Assembly (NCBI RefSeq): GCF_025997995.1
Contig: NZ_AP026683.1
Coordinates: 2,294,501 to 2,358,500 of the forward strand
Direction: 5' to 3'
Length of the DNA stretch: 64,000 bases
DNA from: Sediminibacterium sp. TEGAF015
Lineage (GTDB): Bacteria; Bacteroidota; Bacteroidia; Chitinophagales; Chitinophagaceae
How positions within the stretch are numbered: the stretch's first letter is position 1; each line of letters begins with the position of its first letter. Positions 5,744 to 13,908 of the stretch are shown one piece after another. A program made the position numbers and the translations under genes. The notes under the pieces were generated by a model. The model had not been told where the DNA came from. It ran no database searches and worked only from the letters and a program-made list of their open reading frames with translations.

Positions 5744-6766
5744 ATGAGTAATGCAGAAAAACTAAAAGCCCTTAAGCTGACCATTGACAAGATTGATAAA
5801 GATTTTGGAAAAGGCAGTGTAATGATGATGAATGAAAAAAGTTCCGCTCCCATGGAAGTGGTATCTACGGGATCGCTGGGATTGGATGCTGCATTAGGTG
5901 TGGGAGGCTTACCCAAAGGAAGAATTGTAGAAATCTACGGCCCGGAATCTTCTGGTAAAACCACTGTTGCGATTCATGTTATTGCCGAAGCGCAAAAGAA
6001 GGGTGGTATGTGCGCAATCATTGATGCGGAACACGCTTTTGACAGTGCATATGCACAAAAATTAGGAGTTGATGTAGACAATCTGTTGATTTCACAACCA
6101 GATTATGGTGAACAGGCACTTGAAATTGCAGACCGTTTAATATTATCAGGAGCTTTAGATGTGGTAGTAATCGACTCTGTTGCTGCACTAGTTCCAAAGG
6201 GTGAATTGGAAGGCGAAATGGGGGACAGTAAAATGGGATTGCAGGCGAGATTGATGAGTCAGGCGCTAAGAAAATTGACTGCTACCATTAATAAAACCAA
6301 CACGATTTGTATTTTCATCAATCAGCTTCGTGAAAAGATTGGTGTAATGTTTGGTAATCCCGAAACAACAACCGGTGGTAACGCATTGAAATTCTATGCT
6401 TCTGTACGTCTGGATATCAGAAGAATGACACAGATTAAAGATGGAGATGCGGCTGTTGGTAATCGCGTAAAAGTAAAAGTGGTAAAGAATAAAGTAGCTC
6501 CTCCTTTCCGTGCCGCTGAATTTGATCTGGTATTCGGAGAAGGAATTAGCAAAGTGGGTGAAATCATTGATATGGGTGTTGAAATGGGAATTGTACAAAA
6601 AAGTGGTTCCTGGTTTAGTTATGAAAGCAATAAACTGGGTCAAGGAAGAGAAGCGGTCAAGGCATTACTGTTGGACAATCCTGAATTATCAAATGAAATT
6701 GAGGCAAAAATCAGAGCCAAATTAATTACAGTTACCGAAGCACCTGTTCAGGCTGCTGAAGAATAA
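5744..6766 (+). CDS. recA: Recombinase RecA
   Basis: ATP-dependent strand-exchange protein of homologous recombination and SOS signalling. The Walker A loop (GPESSGKTT) is near residue 67, followed by the conserved [19 protein letters not shown] and loop-2 region [23 protein letters not shown] split by family-typical residues. At 340 aa it is full length, with a short acidic C-terminus (APVQAAEE). It is a stand-alone unit with a terminator on each side; recX is about 26 kb away rather than adjacent. The leader (5632-5743) is AT-rich and contains repeated TAAACG heptamers that might be an operator. Confidence 0.98.
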
Positions 6767-6918: not shown

Positions 6919-8250
6919 ATGAACGCAAAGGTACCCAGACTGTTGATCCTTCGCGGCCGCATTTTGCAATCCATATTTTTATTGGGTTTGCTGTTCGGCG
7001 GGTTCACCTATGCACAGAAAGGAATAGGATTTGATATCCGCCCTTTTAAAAAAGAAGCCATTTTCAGGGATGATGATAAAATTGGCTATAATCTCCGGTT
7101 TAGAAATAATACCAAAGAAAAAATCAGGGGCACCATCAAGGCCAAAGTAACCAATTACAAAGGCGAAGAAGTATTCAATCAGGAAATGGGCTTTACCATG
7201 GATGCCCGTAAGGGATACATGAAAGATCTTTATCTTGAAAATGATAGAATAAAACCAGGATTTTATCAGCTACAGTTAATGGTTTCAGCCAACAATTATG
7301 TTGATACATTGCTATTTGGTTATGGTGTAGACCCGGAAAAAGTATATGCCAATGTGAATCGTCCTGCAGATTTTGATCAGTTCTGGGATGATGCCAGAAG
7401 AGAGTTGGTTAATATAGATCCTAAATTCAGGGTTACCCGAAGGGGTGATCAGAGCACCCGTGATGTAGATGTATTCCTTGTTGAATTTCAATCATTAGAA
7501 TACCAAACCATTCGGGGTTGGTTGTCTGTACCAAAGAGAAAGGGTAAATTTTCTGTGGTTTACGAACTACCCGGATATCTGCAGGATTTGCGCCCCGACT
7601 CCCTTAGAACAGATATGGCGGTTTTCAGATTAAATGTCCGTGGACATGGAAACAGTAAGGACAACACGAATGCCGATTATAATACGTTTAATATCATTAA
7701 TCTTAACGACCGCAATAAATACATCTATCGCGCAGTTTATATGGATGCACTTCGCGGATTAGATTTTATATACCGTCACGAGTACTTAAAATTTGATCTT
7801 AAAAAAGTAATTGTGAAGGGAGAAGGACAGGGTGCTGTGCTCGCAACGGTTGTAGCGTCTTTGGACAACCGTCCTCAGGGATGTATCATTGAAAGACCCG
7901 TGTACACAGATATGAGAACCCTATTCTTTATGGCAGGTTCTCAGAAAGTGATCCCCTGGCCTGTAACCAACTTTCAGACGTATTTAAAAAATCCAAGAAA
8001 CCGATTAAACCAGGAAGGACTTTTTAGGATATGGGACTTTTTTGACCCAGTCAATTTTGCTCCCAATATCAGGTGTAGGGTCTTATTTGGTCATAATCAA
8101 AAAAATACGCAATGTCCGCCTCAGGCGGCTATTGCCTTATATAACCAGATCCGGATTGATAACAGAAATATATACATGAGCCTGGATGATAACGGAATGG
8201 ATGATGTGTATTACCGATATGAAAGTTTCTGGATGAAGAAAATTCTCTGA
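6919..8250 (+). CDS. CE7 acetyl-xylan-esterase-like protein, catalytic residues lost
   Basis: Exported protein with a signal peptide (ending FGGFTYAQ), one Ig-like domain (about residues 25-130) and a carbohydrate esterase family 7 alpha/beta-hydrolase domain opening with RPADFDQFWDD. Against the paralogue at 10295, GGSQG reads GEGQG (Ser to Gly, G303), the acid Asp reads Asn (N396 in NTQCPP), and the GHE histidine site reads GMDD (about M427), with no His in the last 30 residues. The fold is kept but hydrolysis is not expected, so it may bind glycan or act as a scaffold. ATG 6919 is chosen for its signal peptide; the frame is also open from 6883. First gene of a tight six-gene operon. Confidence 0.82.
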   Translation: MNAKVPRLLILRGRILQSIFLLGLLFGGFTYAQKGIGFDIRPFKKEAIFRDDDKIGYNLRFRNNTKEKIRGTIKAKVTNYKGEEVFNQEMGFTMDARKGYMKDLYLENDRIKPGFYQLQLMVSANNYVDTLLFGYGVDPEKVYANVNRPADFDQFWDDARRELVNIDPKFRVTRRGDQSTRDVDVFLVEFQSLEYQTIRGWLSVPKRKGKFSVVYELPGYLQDLRPDSLRTDMAVFRLNVRGHGNSKDNTNADYNTFNIINLNDRNKYIYRAVYMDALRGLDFIYRHEYLKFDLKKVIVKGEGQGAVLATVVASLDNRPQGCIIERPVYTDMRTLFFMAGSQKVIPWPVTNFQTYLKNPRNRLNQEGLFRIWDFFDPVNFAPNIRCRVLFGHNQKNTQCPPQAAIALYNQIRIDNRNIYMSLDDNGMDDVYYRYESFWMKKIL

Positions 8251-8264
8251 GTTTCAAAATTTGA

Positions 8265-9092
8265 ATGATGAAAAAAATTGTAGCGCTTATTCTAGTTGTA
8301 TTGTTGGTTAACTCGGCAAAGGCCGGCTTTCCAATCGGAAGAGGTAAATACCTTATTGTTCCCTCCTACAATTTATATATGGCCAAGGGTTACTGGGATG
8401 CAAACGGAAACTACTTTGCCTATTCCAATAATGGAAGATTTGCTTCTCATTATTTTGGTCTCTATGGTGGCATTGGTATTGGTGAAAAACTGGATTTTGT
8501 TGGGAATATCTCTTATATCATGCAAAGAAAGCTGGAAACAAATTCTACTCAGTCCAATTCCAGCTTAGGAGATGCTAGTTTTGGTCTATCCTATTTGCTG
8601 AATACTTTTGATTACTCTAAGTTTTTAACGGTTACCGGATCATTAATTGTTCCTTTATACACCAACGATGTGAATAAAGCCCCCTATACTGGATTTCAGC
8701 AAGTAGGTGGGGAAATTAAGTTTACCTACTCCGGCTCTAATGGAGAGCGTTATTCCAATACCTACTTCGATATTAATTTAGGCGTAAGACAATATTTTAG
8801 CCCCGAGGGCCCAACACAGGTATTTGGTGATGCATTATTGGGTGTTCCGCTGGATGAGGACAACAAGCTGACTTTTCAGCTGGCAAGCACAAAATCTTCA
8901 AGTACACAGACCCTCTTCAATCCGAACAATTTGTTCTTAAACAGACAGTTTAATTATTTTAGATTAACCGCAGGATATGGCAGAAGAATCAGCCAAAACC
9001 ATCAATTATTCTTCACTTTGTTTACAGATGTAAGCGGAAGGAATACGGGTAAGGGTGGTGGAGGTGCTATATCGTTAGTGGCAGAACTCTAA
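8265..9092 (+). CDS. Outer-membrane beta-barrel protein, paralogue A
   Basis: 275 aa protein with a signal peptide (cleavage near NSAKA) and alternating aromatic/hydrophobic strands typical of an outer-membrane barrel. Its only close relative seen here is the gene at 12150: both begin the mature part with FPIG/YPVG, share Y(W/F)DANG, and share FNPN...LN..FN and GRN near the C-terminus. The gene begins 14 bases after the esterase-like gene and ends 15 bases before the O-acyltransferase, so it is operonic. The function is unknown; by context it may be a pore or anchor for a surface-glycan acylation system. No named family is claimed. Confidence 0.75.
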   Translation: MMKKIVALILVVLLVNSAKAGFPIGRGKYLIVPSYNLYMAKGYWDANGNYFAYSNNGRFASHYFGLYGGIGIGEKLDFVGNISYIMQRKLETNSTQSNSSLGDASFGLSYLLNTFDYSKFLTVTGSLIVPLYTNDVNKAPYTGFQQVGGEIKFTYSGSNGERYSNTYFDINLGVRQYFSPEGPTQVFGDALLGVPLDEDNKLTFQLASTKSSSTQTLFNPNNLFLNRQFNYFRLTAGYGRRISQNHQLFFTLFTDVSGRNTGKGGGGAISLVAEL

Positions 9093-9107
9093 CTAAACGT
9101 ATAATTA

Positions 9108-10298
9108 ATGACGGCAAAACAGTACATCCCATCTTTAACTGGGGTAAGGGGCCTAGCTTCTATATTGATTTTTTTTCACCACTTTAATCAACAGGATTTT
9201 CCGCCGTTATTATTCAGGGTATTAAATGAGTTTCATTTTCCTCTCTCCATGTTTTTTGTTTTGAGTGGATTTCTGATTTGTTTGCGTTATTATGATACCG
9301 TAGAATTATCTGGAAACTGGATGCGCAAATATTTAAAAAATAGAATTGCCCGCGTTTATCCTATCTATCTTATTTTAACCATTGCTGTTTTTGTGTATGC
9401 CTGGATAGCCAATGATAACAGCATTTACAACGGAAAAAATAGTCCCACTACTTTGTTTTTCATGAACGTCACTTTCCTGCGTGGATTTTTTGATGACATG
9501 AAATTTACAGGAATAGCACAAGGCTGGTCTTTAACTGTAGAAGAATGTTTTTATTTTTCAGCACCCATTTTCTTTTTATTGATAAAGCGCAGTAAAATTT
9601 ATTTTCTAGTTGCGCCATTAGTAGTAACAGGGATTGGTGTTTTGCTGGTACTCATTTTTAGAAATGTTGATTTCTATGGTTTCTTCGGATCGTTCAAATT
9701 TTTATTCATCTCTACTTTTTTAGGAAGAACAGTTGAATTCTTTTCAGGGATGGTTCTTGCCATGATTATCAGAAAAGCAGACGATAGTGTAAGCAATTTT
9801 TCTTTATATACCTGGATGGGAATCATTGGGATTGGCTGCACCAACCTAATCATGATTAATCAGCCAATCAGTAAAGAAGTGCCATTTGCCTTATACCAAC
9901 CGATTGGTATTTTTACCAACAATATTATACTGCCGGTTTTTATTTGCATGTTCTTTTATGGATTAATCAAAGAGAATTCAATTCCCAAAAAAATATTGGG
10001 TAGCAAGCTTGGTGAATTGATTGGCAAGAGCTCATATATCCTTTATTTAATACACCTAGGCTTTATCTCGAATCTTACCTCAAACTGGTTACATAATACA
10101 GCCGATACTTTTTATGCTTGGTTAGATAAAAATGAATACTGGTGGCTCTCTGAACACCTGAATTATACCGTACTGGTCTTGTTTTCCCATCTCTTTATAC
10201 TCACTATCATTTCGATTATTTTATATAAGTTTATAGAAGAGCCAATTAATTTATATATCAGAAAGTCGAATTTCCTGGAAAAGAAAACTGCAAGATGA
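9108..10298 (+). CDS. Acyltransferase 3 family membrane O-acyltransferase (OafA-like)
   Basis: Multi-spanning inner-membrane protein of 396 aa with about ten hydrophobic segments. It has the family N-terminus SLTGVRGLASILIFFHHF with the conserved histidine pair, and the WSLTVEECFYF motif around residues 143-153. Members transfer acetyl or other acyl groups to sugars of O-antigen, exopolysaccharide or peptidoglycan. It sits between two esterase/barrel pairs and overlaps the next gene by 4 bases (10295-10298), implying translational coupling. I infer that it adds acyl groups to a glycan that the neighbouring esterases recognise; the target is unknown. Confidence 0.88.
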   Translation: MTAKQYIPSLTGVRGLASILIFFHHFNQQDFPPLLFRVLNEFHFPLSMFFVLSGFLICLRYYDTVELSGNWMRKYLKNRIARVYPIYLILTIAVFVYAWIANDNSIYNGKNSPTTLFFMNVTFLRGFFDDMKFTGIAQGWSLTVEECFYFSAPIFFLLIKRSKIYFLVAPLVVTGIGVLLVLIFRNVDFYGFFGSFKFLFISTFLGRTVEFFSGMVLAMIIRKADDSVSNFSLYTWMGIIGIGCTNLIMINQPISKEVPFALYQPIGIFTNNIILPVFICMFFYGLIKENSIPKKILGSKLGELIGKSSYILYLIHLGFISNLTSNWLHNTADTFYAWLDKNEYWWLSEHLNYTVLVLFSHLFILTIISIILYKFIEEPINLYIRKSNFLEKKTAR

Positions 10299-12145
10299 TA
10301 TTCAAATCCCAATACCGAGTCACAGCACTGCCATTGATGTTCCTGATCATGGGAATCTTTTGTTTTGCAGACAATGGCTATGCTCAGAAAGGCAAGACAA
10401 AAGATCCGGTTATTGTAAATATTTTGCCTTACAATAAAAAAGCTAGGTTTAATAGAAAGTTTCCTGTTAAGTATAAAATACAGTTCATCAATAATTTAAA
10501 AGATGCACAGGAAGGAACATTGGTATATACTGTATTTGACAATGCAAATCAGGAAGTGCTTCAAAATAGTTTGGATGTAAGGGTTAATGCTAAAAAAACA
10601 CTTGCAGCGAATTTTGATGTACCCATTGAAAAAGAAGGAAACTATACCATTAAAATGGCCATTGAATTAACCAACTTCAATAGCAATTATGATGGAAGCT
10701 TTGCCTACATTGGCCCCCCACGAAAAGCCAAAGACAGAAAACCATCCAATCAACAGGAACCAATTGTTAATACCCCACCGGTAAATTGGTCTGCCGATAA
10801 TCTATCTAATGATCCTAAAAGACAAAGTCTTGGAGCAGATCAAGTAGGAGAAGCGCCACCAGCCGAAGAAGAAGAAGGGGAAGAAGGCGAAATGATTATC
10901 AAATTAAAGCCTTATAAAAAAGATGGCGTTTTTTATACAGGAGAAAAGATAAAATATTCCGTTTCTATCGCGAATAAGTACAAAGTAAGGCAAGAAGGAA
11001 CATTTACTGCAATAGTGGAGACCGAATTAGGACAAGTAGTTAGTAAAACGCAGGTTAAATTAAAAATTGCTCCTAAAGGCCAACGTAGTTTTCAGATTGA
11101 AATACCAAAACCTGAAAAAGAGGGAATATATAATTTAAGAGCGGCTACCAATACGAGTACTTACGATGATACCGCACAATATGCTTTTGGATATGAAATA
11201 GGAAAAATAAACAGACCCTATTATTTGCCTCCAGATTTTGATGAATTTTGGCAAACTGCCATGAACGATTTGGCGAAAGTAGATCCACAGTACAAAATTT
11301 CCCGAAGCGAAGAATACAGCACCAAGTATCACGATGTGTATCGTGTTGATATGGTTGGGCTAGACGAGTTTCCTTTTTATGGATATTTATCTATTCCCAA
11401 ATTGAAAGGAAAGTATCCGGTTATCATTGGTTATGGTGGATACAAAAAAGAAGTATTTCCATTACTCTTCGACGAGTTTATATCTTTTGCAGTTAATGTT
11501 AGGGGTATTGATAAGAAATACGAGAAAGAATTTAATCCGGACAACAAAGAGCAAATCATGCTCAATGCTGAAGATAAAAACAACTATGTATACAAAGGCA
11601 TTTACATGGATTGTATACGTGCAGTTGATTTTATTTATGCGCATGAGCATATGGGCATGGATTTGAGCAGGGTTACTGCGTTTGGTGGTAGTCAGGGTGC
11701 AACTATGGGATTAATTACTGCTGCATTGTTGCCCAACAAGATAAATGCTGTTGTAGCTAGTAACCCAGTATTTGCAGATTGGAAAAACAGTTTTGCTGTG
11801 GGAAAAAATAAACGTGTCTTAACTTTTCCATCAGATGCTATTGTAAGATACTTGAGAGAAAATCCAGATTTTACAGAAGAGCAGATGTTGGAAACATTTA
11901 ACTATTTCGATTTGCAAAATTTTATGCCCAAAGTACAATGCCCTGTTTTATATGCGGTTGGTTTACAAGATGACTTTATTTCACCCAGCAGTGCAATTGC
12001 CGCCTATAATAAAATGAGAATGGATGCCCGAGCTTTGAGCGAATTGTATATATTCCCCGATTTAGGTCACGAAATCCCAGTGTATCACAATTCATTTATT
12101 GGAATCTGGTTTGCTGAACAAGCTGTAAAAAAGCGGAAAAGATAA
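10295..12145 (+). CDS. Exported CE7 acetyl-xylan-esterase-like protein with two Ig-like domains
   Basis: 616 aa exported esterase candidate. After the signal peptide (ending NGYAQ) come two Ig-like repeats (about residues 35-145 and 200-305) split by a Pro/Glu-rich linker (PPAEEEEGEEGE), then a CE7 alpha/beta-hydrolase domain starting LPPDFDEFWQ. The catalytic set is intact: S466 in GGSQG, D559 in LQDDFISP and H592 in GHEIP. The usual RGQG of CE7 enzymes reads RGID. Members remove acetyl groups from xylan and other sugars. It is the active counterpart of the gene at 6919 and is coupled to the O-acyltransferase by a 4-base overlap. The natural substrate is unknown. Confidence 0.85.
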   Translation: MIFKSQYRVTALPLMFLIMGIFCFADNGYAQKGKTKDPVIVNILPYNKKARFNRKFPVKYKIQFINNLKDAQEGTLVYTVFDNANQEVLQNSLDVRVNAKKTLAANFDVPIEKEGNYTIKMAIELTNFNSNYDGSFAYIGPPRKAKDRKPSNQQEPIVNTPPVNWSADNLSNDPKRQSLGADQVGEAPPAEEEEGEEGEMIIKLKPYKKDGVFYTGEKIKYSVSIANKYKVRQEGTFTAIVETELGQVVSKTQVKLKIAPKGQRSFQIEIPKPEKEGIYNLRAATNTSTYDDTAQYAFGYEIGKINRPYYLPPDFDEFWQTAMNDLAKVDPQYKISRSEEYSTKYHDVYRVDMVGLDEFPFYGYLSIPKLKGKYPVIIGYGGYKKEVFPLLFDEFISFAVNVRGIDKKYEKEFNPDNKEQIMLNAEDKNNYVYKGIYMDCIRAVDFIYAHEHMGMDLSRVTAFGGSQGATMGLITAALLPNKINAVVASNPVFADWKNSFAVGKNKRVLTFPSDAIVRYLRENPDFTEEQMLETFNYFDLQNFMPKVQCPVLYAVGLQDDFISPSSAIAAYNKMRMDARALSELYIFPDLGHEIPVYHNSFIGIWFAEQAVKKRKR

Positions 12146-12149
12146 AACC

Positions 12150-12977
12150 ATGCAATTGTCTAAATCATATATAATTTTTCTTATTACGGTAATGCTACTT
12201 TCCGTTGGAAAGGTTCGTGCTGACTATCCAGTAGGAAAGAAAAGAACAGCCCTAACCGGAACCTTCAATTATTTTTATTCCAATAAATATTTTGATGCAA
12301 ACGGTAAACTGATAAATAATTTTCCAGGAGATTATTTTCAATCTACATTCTATAGTTTAAACATTACGCACGGACTTAGCAGAAGAATTGATTTAACTGC
12401 CACATTGCCTTTTGCCAAACAAACATTGGTAAATGGCAATAATTCTGAGTCAAGATCGGGTATTACCGATGTAAACCTGGGATTGTCTTTTCATTTTCCT
12501 TCGGTGGATTACAAACGCTATTTCACTTTAAAGGCATCAGTAGGCATACCGGCTTATCAGAATAATCAAACCCCATATTTGGGATTTGCATCCAAGGCAG
12601 TAATGTTGGGCGCTAACTACTCTTTTACGCCATACAAAAACGGATACGCTATTCTGGAATTCATGTATACCCGGTTTTTGGATTCTGGTGATGGTCCTAA
12701 TCAGTACAGAGGTTCTTTAACTATTGGGAAAATGTATAATAAGCATACATCTGTAACTGCATCTCTTTCGCATTTGGTATCACAAAGTGTTAACACCACA
12801 TTTAATCCCAATTTACAACTGAACAAAGATTTTAATGCGGCAACGTTTAATGTAAGTGTAGGAAGAAAACTTAACAGATCTATCACACCAACTATACAAG
12901 GATATTATACGCTGCTAGGCCGGAATGCAGGATTGGGTATGGGTGTTAATTTCTTTGTAACTGTAAGACTGCCATAG
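12150..12977 (+). CDS. Outer-membrane beta-barrel protein, paralogue B
   Basis: 275 aa, exactly the length of its paralogue at 8265. The signal peptide ends near KVRA; the mature part starts DYPVGKKRTAL and contains YFDANGK, VDYKRYFTLK and TTFNPNLQLNKDFN, which align with the other copy. The alternating hydrophobic pattern points to an outer-membrane barrel. It starts 4 bases after the CE7 esterase stop, so the esterase/barrel order seen upstream is repeated. The function is not known; a role in export, anchoring or sensing of an acylated surface polymer is only a context-based guess. Confidence 0.75.
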   Translation: MQLSKSYIIFLITVMLLSVGKVRADYPVGKKRTALTGTFNYFYSNKYFDANGKLINNFPGDYFQSTFYSLNITHGLSRRIDLTATLPFAKQTLVNGNNSESRSGITDVNLGLSFHFPSVDYKRYFTLKASVGIPAYQNNQTPYLGFASKAVMLGANYSFTPYKNGYAILEFMYTRFLDSGDGPNQYRGSLTIGKMYNKHTSVTASLSHLVSQSVNTTFNPNLQLNKDFNAATFNVSVGRKLNRSITPTIQGYYTLLGRNAGLGMGVNFFVTVRLP

Positions 12978-12990
12978 AAAACTGTTTTCC

Positions 12991-13908
12991 TTGTTATACC
13001 GGATAATAAAGCCATTTATACGTGTTGCCTTGTATTTTTTCTTCAGAAAAATCTACCTAAACCATTCTGAGGTATATGCAATAAAAGGACCGGTATTAAT
13101 TACGGCCAACCACCCTAATTCTTTTTTAGATGCTATTTTGATTGGTGCTTTTTTTAAAAAGCCAATTCATTTTTTAGCAAGAGGAGATGCTTTTAAAAAG
13201 CCGATTCATCGTTTTTTCTTAGGTCTGCTCAACATGATCCCTATTTACAGATTAAGTGAAGGAAAAGAAAATTTATATCTGAATGAATATGCGTTTAGGG
13301 CTTCAAAGAAAATTTTAGAAGACGATGGCATCGTGCTAATATTTATTGAGGGGATTTGTTTATTAACCAATGAGATTCAGCCGTTTAAAAAAGGCGCAGC
13401 CAGAATTGCACTGGACTATAAGGGAAAAAAGCCCTTGCAGATTCTGCCCTTGGGAATTGCCTATGACCGGTTTAATTCCTGGGGATCAACAGTTAACCTC
13501 CATGCCGGCAAAACCATTTCGTTAGCAGAGCTATTGCCATTTGATGACCGGGCTAAAAACATGCGCTATTTTAATGATAGCATAGTTCAATCACTGAATC
13601 GGTTGATAGTAACTCCATTAAACGCAAAGCCTGCTCAGAATAGAATCGTAAAACTGATAGGTAATCTTGGATACATCATTCATCGTTGGTTTTTTCTTGG
13701 ACTAGACTCTTTTGTGAGAAGAAAAACCCAAAACACGGTATTTCACGACTCTGTTTTATTTGGCACTTTATTCATTTTATATCCTATTCTTATTGTTATT
13801 ATTGGTTTCTGCCTGATTTCCCTCTTTGGCCTGAAAATGATTCTGCCTCTGCTAGGGATTTTGGTTATGGCTAGGTGTATTGTTTTAGTGAAAAATCCAA
13901 ACGAATAA
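12991..13908 (+). CDS. PlsC-type 1-acylglycerol-3-phosphate acyltransferase family protein
   Basis: Membrane-associated glycerolipid acyltransferase family protein, 305 aa. Motif I reads ANHPNSFLDAI (His and Asp five residues apart instead of the usual four, with N as second helper), and the substrate-binding motif reads FIEGICLLTN in place of FPEGTR. The N-terminus carries an amphipathic or membrane segment (RVALYFFFRKIY), and two hydrophobic segments close the protein. The start is a TTG 13 bases after the barrel gene; no ATG precedes the conserved region. Its place at the end of the glycan-acylation operon may be meaningful, or it may be ordinary phospholipid synthesis. Confidence 0.82.
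   Translation: MLYRIIKPFIRVALYFFFRKIYLNHSEVYAIKGPVLITANHPNSFLDAILIGAFFKKPIHFLARGDAFKKPIHRFFLGLLNMIPIYRLSEGKENLYLNEYAFRASKKILEDDGIVLIFIEGICLLTNEIQPFKKGAARIALDYKGKKPLQILPLGIAYDRFNSWGSTVNLHAGKTISLAELLPFDDRAKNMRYFNDSIVQSLNRLIVTPLNAKPAQNRIVKLIGNLGYIIHRWFFLGLDSFVRRKTQNTVFHDSVLFGTLFILYPILIVIIGFCLISLFGLKMILPLLGILVMARCIVLVKNPNE

Follow-up and report, generated by a model that had tools for sequence, protein, structure and literature searches.

A six-gene operon (E1, B1, OafA, E2, B2 and PlsC) was analysed in a window of 64,000 nucleotides from the genome of the freshwater bacterium Sediminibacterium sp. TEGAF015 (contig NZ_AP026683.1, positions 2,294,501 to 2,358,500). It was concluded, with a probability of roughly 0.55, that the operon serves to attach acyl groups to an exopolysaccharide made by a synthase and to export it through the outer membrane. 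Of this reading, the gene order, the loss of the catalytic triad in one of the two CE7-type proteins, the pairing of esterases with barrels, the usual adjacency of OafA to a triad-bearing esterase, and the co-occurrence of the module with a GH18-NodB-GT2 synthase were observed directly, whereas the identity of the polymer, the direction of transport, the acyl relay and the role of E1 are inferred.

The host genome was a single contig of 3.06 Mb and its nearest named relatives were Sediminibacterium strains, E1 of S. salmoneum being 97% identical over the best segment. All six open reading frames (ORFs) were present on the plus strand at positions 6919-13908 (Table). The tight packing described in the original prediction was confirmed, with gaps of 4-15 bases and one 4-base overlap between OafA and E2 (the spacing along the operon was, in order, 14, 15, -4, 4 and 13 bases). 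A Pfam scan identified AXE1 (CE7) in E1 and E2, Acyl_transf_3 in OafA and Acyltransferase in PlsC, and gave no match above the cut-off for the barrels B1 and B2. The two esterases had been taken for paralogues, as had the two barrels, and this was borne out by identities of 31% between E1 and E2 (383 columns, E-value 6e-62) and 29% between B1 and B2 (268 columns, E-value 1e-29). Hydrophobic leaders were found at the N-termini of E1 and E2, and the region ahead of the CE7 domain was labelled "Ig-like" (immunoglobulin-like) because MG2 and Mannosidase_ig matched E2 weakly, at scores short of the cut-offs. The start of E1 was placed at ATG 6919, the longest ORF opening earlier at GTG 6883, and the start codon of PlsC was TTG.

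The triad columns were compared in an alignment of E1, E2 and the best 120 of 131 database homologs. E2 carried an intact Ser466/Asp559/His592 triad, which together with its AXE1 match (6.1e-45) made it a member of CE7; its match in the PDB was 1l7a (9.6e-32). E1 lacked the Ser-Asp-His triad by which CE7 membership was judged: Gly stood for Ser, Asn for Asp and Asn (or Gly, depending on the alignment) for His, and the local motifs at the lost triad were GEGQG and HNQKN, with no His. The 45 homologs nearest to E1 (at least 38% identity; two were fragments with gaps) kept neither Ser nor Asp nor His, and the Ser-to-Gly change was common to all of them; in the next 75 homologs among the matches listed, all three residues were intact. 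The esterases of the fetched loci carried either all three triad residues or none. In a tree of 60 esterases (33 pseudo and 27 triad-bearing) the pseudo rows formed one side of a single branch with a support of 100/100, so a single loss of the triad suffices. The motif G-x-G-Q-G was invariant in a 16-row alignment of the pseudo group, in which no His was invariant, and among more distant pseudo members the one residue kept throughout was the Gly in place of Ser. Because the triad residues are replaced, E1 cannot, judging by its sequence, be an esterase of the CE7 mechanism, and the loss is that of one clade across Chitinophagaceae, while E2 keeps the residues.

The structure model of E1 nevertheless kept the CE7 fold, the best match being 6agq with a TM-score of 0.83 by target. 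The nonsynonymous divergence (dN) of E1 was the lowest of the six genes in seven of eight pairwise comparisons, the exception being L008-L009, where B1 was lower. Its ratio to synonymous divergence (dN/dS) was 0.014-0.029 in the four comparisons that gave a value, the other four being saturated in dS. Relative to a distant Sediminibacterium locus (L012), identities were 76% for E1, 66% for B1, 57% for OafA, 51% for E2, 50% for PlsC and 48% for B2. The possibility that E1 is a decaying pseudogene was rejected, since its dN was the lowest in most comparisons and its dN/dS was low in the four of eight pairs for which it was computable. A split E1 frame was seen in S. salmoneum NBRC 103935 (L011:10001-11367), where tblastn returned two pieces and an intact ORF was present only from residue 91; either an error in sequencing or a true frameshift could account for this.

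The original prediction had called for structure prediction of the 275-residue proteins, and the model obtained for B1 was a 12-strand barrel (mean pLDDT 86.8). Its best fold match was a COG4313 channel, and the predicted strand number was that of the COG4313/PF13557 channel fold. None of 28 barrel-family members, B1 and B2 included, matched any Pfam family at 0.01, and a PDB sequence search gave no match; a divergent relative in L150 matched PF13557 at 2e-8.

Forty loci were fetched from esterase-positive Chitinophagaceae, several per genome and some on contigs of only 4-5 kb, and in these a full-length esterase was followed by a barrel with few exceptions (a pseudoesterase followed by a synthase in L056 and L057, and esterases at contig ends in L089, L094 and L098). 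The barrel of L064 was split into two ORFs. The distances among esterases and among barrels correlated with r = 0.94 over 60 pairs; random pairing gave at most 0.12 and partner swaps within loci at most 0.79 in 2000 trials, all below the observed value. For the trees and this test, L011, L018, L019, L020, L022, L074 and L075 were dropped as near-copies, as were esterases without a barrel of more than 230 residues within 200 bases. The barrels of pseudoesterases formed one group (94/82) mirroring the esterase tree, and the triad-bearing pair of L065 was sister to the pseudo group in both trees. These patterns indicate that esterases and barrels co-evolved as pairs and, since the two groups are mirrored and the L065 pair is sister in both, that the pair was most likely duplicated as a unit, in agreement with the old duplication of the module that had been suggested. 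The order barrel, esterase, esterase, barrel was found in three loci of genus g203 from a second family, f23 (L163, L184 and L187), and a barrel without an esterase in L149, L185 and L186. In L149 (7604-8494, genome G037) the lone barrel was some 7 kb away from recA, no esterase stood near it, and a GH18-NodB-GT2 gene was about 23 kb off. In a draw from the order, the barrel profile matched 12 of 248 genomes, all Chitinophagaceae; six of these matches, in genera g84 and g35, were weak and half-length and were left out. No esterase was found in the three g84/g35 loci fetched (L150-L152), and in L150 and L152 the distant barrel relatives adjoined PAP2/vanadium-peroxidase-like genes.

The layout of the operon was compared across 20 named loci, of which L024 and L025 were set aside as distant CE7 genes. 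Among the remaining 18, the exact six-gene order was found in eight (L011 with its split E1 included), an additional triad-bearing esterase-barrel pair in five (PlsC was seen in four of these) and an additional Ig-only ORF in three; in L010 both OafA and B2 were missing and E2 was without its CE7 part, and L019 was cut by the contig. In Chitinophagaceae an esterase match at 1e-40 was obtained in 34 of 394 genomes; six of the ten same-genus genomes in the draw had none at this threshold. Twenty of the 40 fetched loci were pseudoesterase-only, eight of them directly after recA, and G087, of the same genus as the host, carried OafA, a triad-bearing esterase, a barrel and PlsC without the pseudo pair. 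The esterase profile at 1e-60 matched 7 of 395 genomes drawn from the phylum, and all but G000 and G087 belonged to g203. In seven g203 genomes examined, OafA stood with triad-bearing esterases and barrels, and no pseudo copy was found within the stretches fetched. Conservation of the six genes together, on which the original prediction had hinged, thus held in part: the order recurs exactly in 8 of 18 close loci, but it is not one indivisible unit, as many loci have the pseudo pair but neither OafA nor PlsC, and others have OafA, esterase and barrel but no pseudo pair. PlsC was treated as a loosely attached member, because L010 kept it, the f23 cassettes yielded no PlsC and its identity was the lowest of the six genes in seven of eight comparisons. 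It scored below the cut-offs of the NCBIfam models that it matched.

OafA was classed as a standalone AT3 protein, with PF01757 and without a listed SGNH domain. It was present in 10 of 20 loci with a triad-bearing esterase and in none of the 20 pseudo-only loci (Fisher 0.0004). As these 40 loci had been found through the esterase, OafA was also searched for itself (1e-60). Thirteen of 264 genomes matched, and in eight of them (G000, G066, G078, G087, G121, G138, G207 and G238) a triad-bearing esterase adjoined OafA; in G033 the contig ended at OafA. All 13 were synthase-positive. The proposed link of the esterase-barrel module to an acyltransferase was supported. For standalone AT3 proteins, it has been suggested that the counterpart of the SGNH domain is a partner protein "as yet unknown", although some of them, e.g., IcaC, may need none (PMC9833829). 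Acyl transfer by a CE7 protein is chemically possible, since acetylation of xylan by a cross-linked CE7 enzyme, in hexane and with acetic acid as the donor, was reported (PMC6209228). E2, whose gene overlaps that of OafA by 4 bases, is regarded as a candidate periplasmic partner of OafA. Free-standing ORFs of 133-140 residues with hydrophobic leaders were observed before PlsC at L010:12196-12618 and L016:16124-16525; these resembled the first N-terminal domain of E2, as separate genes.

In L056 and L057 a protein of 1132-1141 residues with GH18, NodB and GT2 parts was encoded between the pseudoesterase and the next pair. The best NCBIfam match of its GT2 part was PgaC/IcaA, at 210 bits against a cut-off of 422. 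A synthase of this kind (61% identity) was found in the host genome at C1:2449442-2452795, among unrelated-looking neighbours. It occurred in 158 of 394 Chitinophagaceae genomes, namely in 31 of the 34 with an esterase match and 127 of the 360 without (Fisher 1.2e-10, not corrected for kinship). G348, the genome of the reduced locus L010 described above, had no synthase match either. Where both were present (31 genomes), synthase and esterase were on one contig in 10 and on different contigs in 21; six of the 10 same-contig cases lay within 8.6 kb (three genera) and four at 126-495 kb. The synthase was at most 10.1 kb from recA in five of nine esterase-positive genomes and in none of 40 negative ones (Fisher 6.6e-5), the genomes compared having been hand-picked for few contigs after the near cases had already been seen. 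In the 40 negative genomes, synthase and recA were on the same contig in 25, always more than 80 kb apart, and on other contigs in 15.

In f23 the barrel was found in 15 of 121 genomes, and the synthase in 15 of 15 barrel-positive genomes versus 17 of 106 others. The distance between the two was 3.9 kb (G944), 8.0 kb (G783) or 8.8 kb (G928) in three genomes and 31-258 kb in four more (G829, G1037, G1043 and G1054); in the other eight they were on different contigs. On one strand of G944 (L166) the synthase, a radical-SAM gene, OafA, a triad-bearing esterase, a barrel and a TPR protein followed one another. Such a TPR-type protein (672-720 residues, with a hydrophobic leader) came after the barrel in four of seven g203 genomes (L164 and L166 by Pfam, L165 and L167 by similarity). 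A search of the host genome for a TPR partner gave partial matches only, far from the operon. In genus g202 (L185 and L186) the barrel, 33% identical to B1 in L186, had a BcsB-family protein on one side and, on the other, a GT2 protein carrying an MshEN domain. Synthase-dependent secretion is characterised by TPR together with a barrel, by BcsB and by GT2 (PMC9384988, PMC9734138). The synthase, BcsB and TPR neighbours in relatives favour a surface polymer as the likely target, as had been suspected.

It was proposed that the GH18-NodB-GT2 synthase, encoded elsewhere in the genome, would make and extrude a polymer that may resemble poly-N-acetylglucosamine (PNAG) or the Xag polysaccharide. OafA would carry acyl groups to the periplasm, where E2, a CE7 serine esterase, would either transfer them to the polymer or trim them off. 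An outer-membrane passage or dock, presumably for export, would be provided by B1 and B2, and E1 may act at B1 in the manner of a lectin, retaining the polymer or guiding it. The general scheme of synthase-dependent secretion is established knowledge. A further-reaching version holds that the CE7 hydrolase is the missing periplasmic transferase of the standalone AT3 protein and its ancient dead copy the polymer guide of a 12-strand outer-membrane exporter, together forming a new modification-export unit for synthase-dependent exopolysaccharides that arose via one esterase-barrel duplication; it is advanced tentatively and is rather doubtful.

Several observations weigh against the export reading, and the barrel is its weak point. 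Twelve strands are narrow for a polysaccharide exporter, given the usual strand counts of exporters. For the COG4313 channel, hydrophobic uptake was proposed and hydrophilic passage considered unlikely in the available text (PMC4493636); FapF, which has the same fold, is described in part of its report as exporting amyloid (PMC5557850). The host synthase is not beside the operon but 141 kb from its end. The associations were weaker when counted by genus, both in Chitinophagaceae (9/9 versus 61/101, p 0.008) and in f23 (2/2 versus 7/25, p 0.07). The synthase does not need the module, since 127 synthase-positive genomes had no esterase match at 1e-40, and the module was present with no detected synthase in G146 and G245. 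No TPR protein came after the barrel in three of the seven g203 genomes (L163, L184 and L187). In G024, G190 and G154 OafA was apart from the esterases, esterase-barrel pairs being elsewhere in the genome, and the claim that OafA is always with a triad-bearing esterase was dropped; in G009 a distant OafA match (42%) had no esterase nearby. Plain trimming by E2 is a simpler alternative to transfer, and E2 could be a mere hydrolase. PlsC has no clear place in the scheme, and SusD/TonB-type genes stand upstream of the L165 cassette, an arrangement expected of a degradative locus.

The last point is shared with the proposal that E2 deacetylates foreign plant or algal glycans entering via the barrels, with OafA as a passenger. 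Deacetylation is the usual role of CE7, the solved relatives being named acetyl xylan esterases and cephalosporin C deacetylases, and OafA and the esterase are sometimes apart. However, no glycoside hydrolase, SusC or SusD was found among the scanned window proteins (the six, RecA and the amidase), OafA adjoined a triad-bearing esterase in 8 of the 13 genomes found via OafA, and a dead esterase has been kept under strong purifying selection; we consider scavenging improbable. Somewhat less improbable, though still unlikely, is that the barrels are COG4313-type lateral-diffusion channels and that the substrate remodelled by OafA, PlsC and E2 is not a polysaccharide but an acylated lipid or glycolipid of the outer membrane. 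The fold match, the PF13557 match of the divergent relative and the membership of PlsC in the operon agree with such lipid handling, but the 33%-identical barrel between BcsB and a GT2 synthase, the TPR and GH18-NodB-GT2 neighbours, and the distribution of PlsC, which was not found in the f23 cassettes and is retained in the reduced locus L010, do not.

The original prediction itself implied that both CE7 proteins are working esterases, trimming from a surface polymer the acyl groups that OafA adds, and that the barrels are generic partners. Both proteins match AXE1 far above the cut-off and the genes are packed, but trimming by both failed on the residues: E1 and its 45 closest homologs are without the catalytic Ser, Asp and His, no His is invariant in 16 E1-type sequences, and the triad is lost throughout the examined pseudo clade. 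This explanation is the least credible of those considered. Taken with these alternatives, export and acyl modification of a synthase-made exopolysaccharide was retained as the best explanation of the operon.

Each protein family of the operon is known, the barrels apart, and its novelty is the combination, within the synthase-dependent exopolysaccharide systems. The Pga/Ica systems of PNAG, as far as they are covered by the sections available (PMC9833829, PMC5933820, PMC9384988), likewise have a GT2 synthase, a NodB deacetylase and a GH domain (fused here as GH18-NodB-GT2), an AT3 protein (IcaC there) and a TPR protein beside an outer-membrane barrel, the last found here in part of f23. Unlike in Pga/Ica, the barrel is predicted to have 12 strands, a CE7 esterase and a pseudoesterase are added, the genes are scattered in the host genome, and the GT2 part scores below the PgaC/IcaA cut-off, as given above. 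The XagABCD biofilm polysaccharide operon of Xanthomonas is similar in having a barrel gene with a GT2 gene, plus BcsB in L185 and L186. Three of 42 B1 homologs bear the label "protein XagA" in one source. The raised biofilm of an rpfG mutant depended on xagA and xagB, and the text available on the operon mentions no CE7 or AT3 protein (PMC3609779). The L185 and L186 operons, which continue with proteins of 526-554 residues without a Pfam match, are candidates for a Xag-like system in a second Bacteroidota family. As in the AT3-SGNH acyltransferases (OafB, OatA) and PatA/PatB, a membrane acyl carrier would have a periplasmic hydrolase-fold partner, but the candidate here is a CE7 alpha/beta-hydrolase encoded by a separate gene, not SGNH. 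CE7 acetyl xylan esterases share the fold (E1 by model) and, with E2, the triad; they differ from the proteins here in the N-terminal Ig-like region, the fixed barrel partner and the missing triad of E1. In contrast to COG4313 channels and FapF, the barrel family has neither a Pfam nor a PDB sequence match. No described AT3-CE7-barrel cassette or pseudoesterase-barrel pair was recognised among the open-licence papers listed.

Table. Genes of the operon, with positions in the window.
Gene	Description	Position	Strand	Match
E1	Predicted-secreted Ig-like and CE7-fold pseudoesterase	6919..8250	+	AXE1 1.7e-35
B1	Predicted 12-strand outer-membrane barrel, partner of E1	8265..9092	+	
OafA	Standalone AT3 membrane acyltransferase	9108..10298	+	PF01757 3.5e-23, residues 8-371 of 396
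E2	Predicted-secreted Ig-like region and CE7 esterase, triad intact	10295..12145	+	AXE1 6.1e-45
B2	Barrel, paralogue of B1, partner of E2	12150..12977	+	29% identity to B1
PlsC	PlsC-type acyltransferase, loosely attached	12991..13908	+	PF01553 4.7e-17

The gene recA (5744-6766 in the window) was directly before the module in 16 of the 40 Chitinophagaceae loci, from six of nine genera, and an amidase gene was often after it; the recA-amidase interval is a conserved chromosomal slot with variable esterase-barrel content. In L196 (G024) the slot held OafA alone, with a GH18-NodB-GT2 gene 12 kb off on the same strand and esterase-barrel pairs elsewhere. In genus g48 (L060, L062 and L063; partial gene in L061) the pseudo pair followed a PIF1/HRDC-type helicase gene, not recA. 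A radical-SAM gene preceded OafA in L163-L167, with PF16199 in L163, L164 and L166, which were examined for it. The ORFs of 557-570 residues before E1 in L069 and L073 were rejected as synthases, being amidohydrolases, and the 1151-residue ORF of L073, with no Pfam match, was not counted. A defence system was also rejected, as PADLOC matched none of the six proteins, and so was a plasmid origin, the 32 plasmid records that matched E1 all being below 60% identity (5 of the 32 listed).

The completion of acyl transfer outside the membrane by standalone AT3 proteins is stated as open in the available text of PMC9833829. The operon offers a testable candidate for the AT3 partner, an outer-membrane partner and a nature-made dead-enzyme control, and, in the proposed reading, it would supply the GH18-NodB-GT2 synthase (encoded by 158 of 394 Chitinophagaceae genomes) with an exporter.

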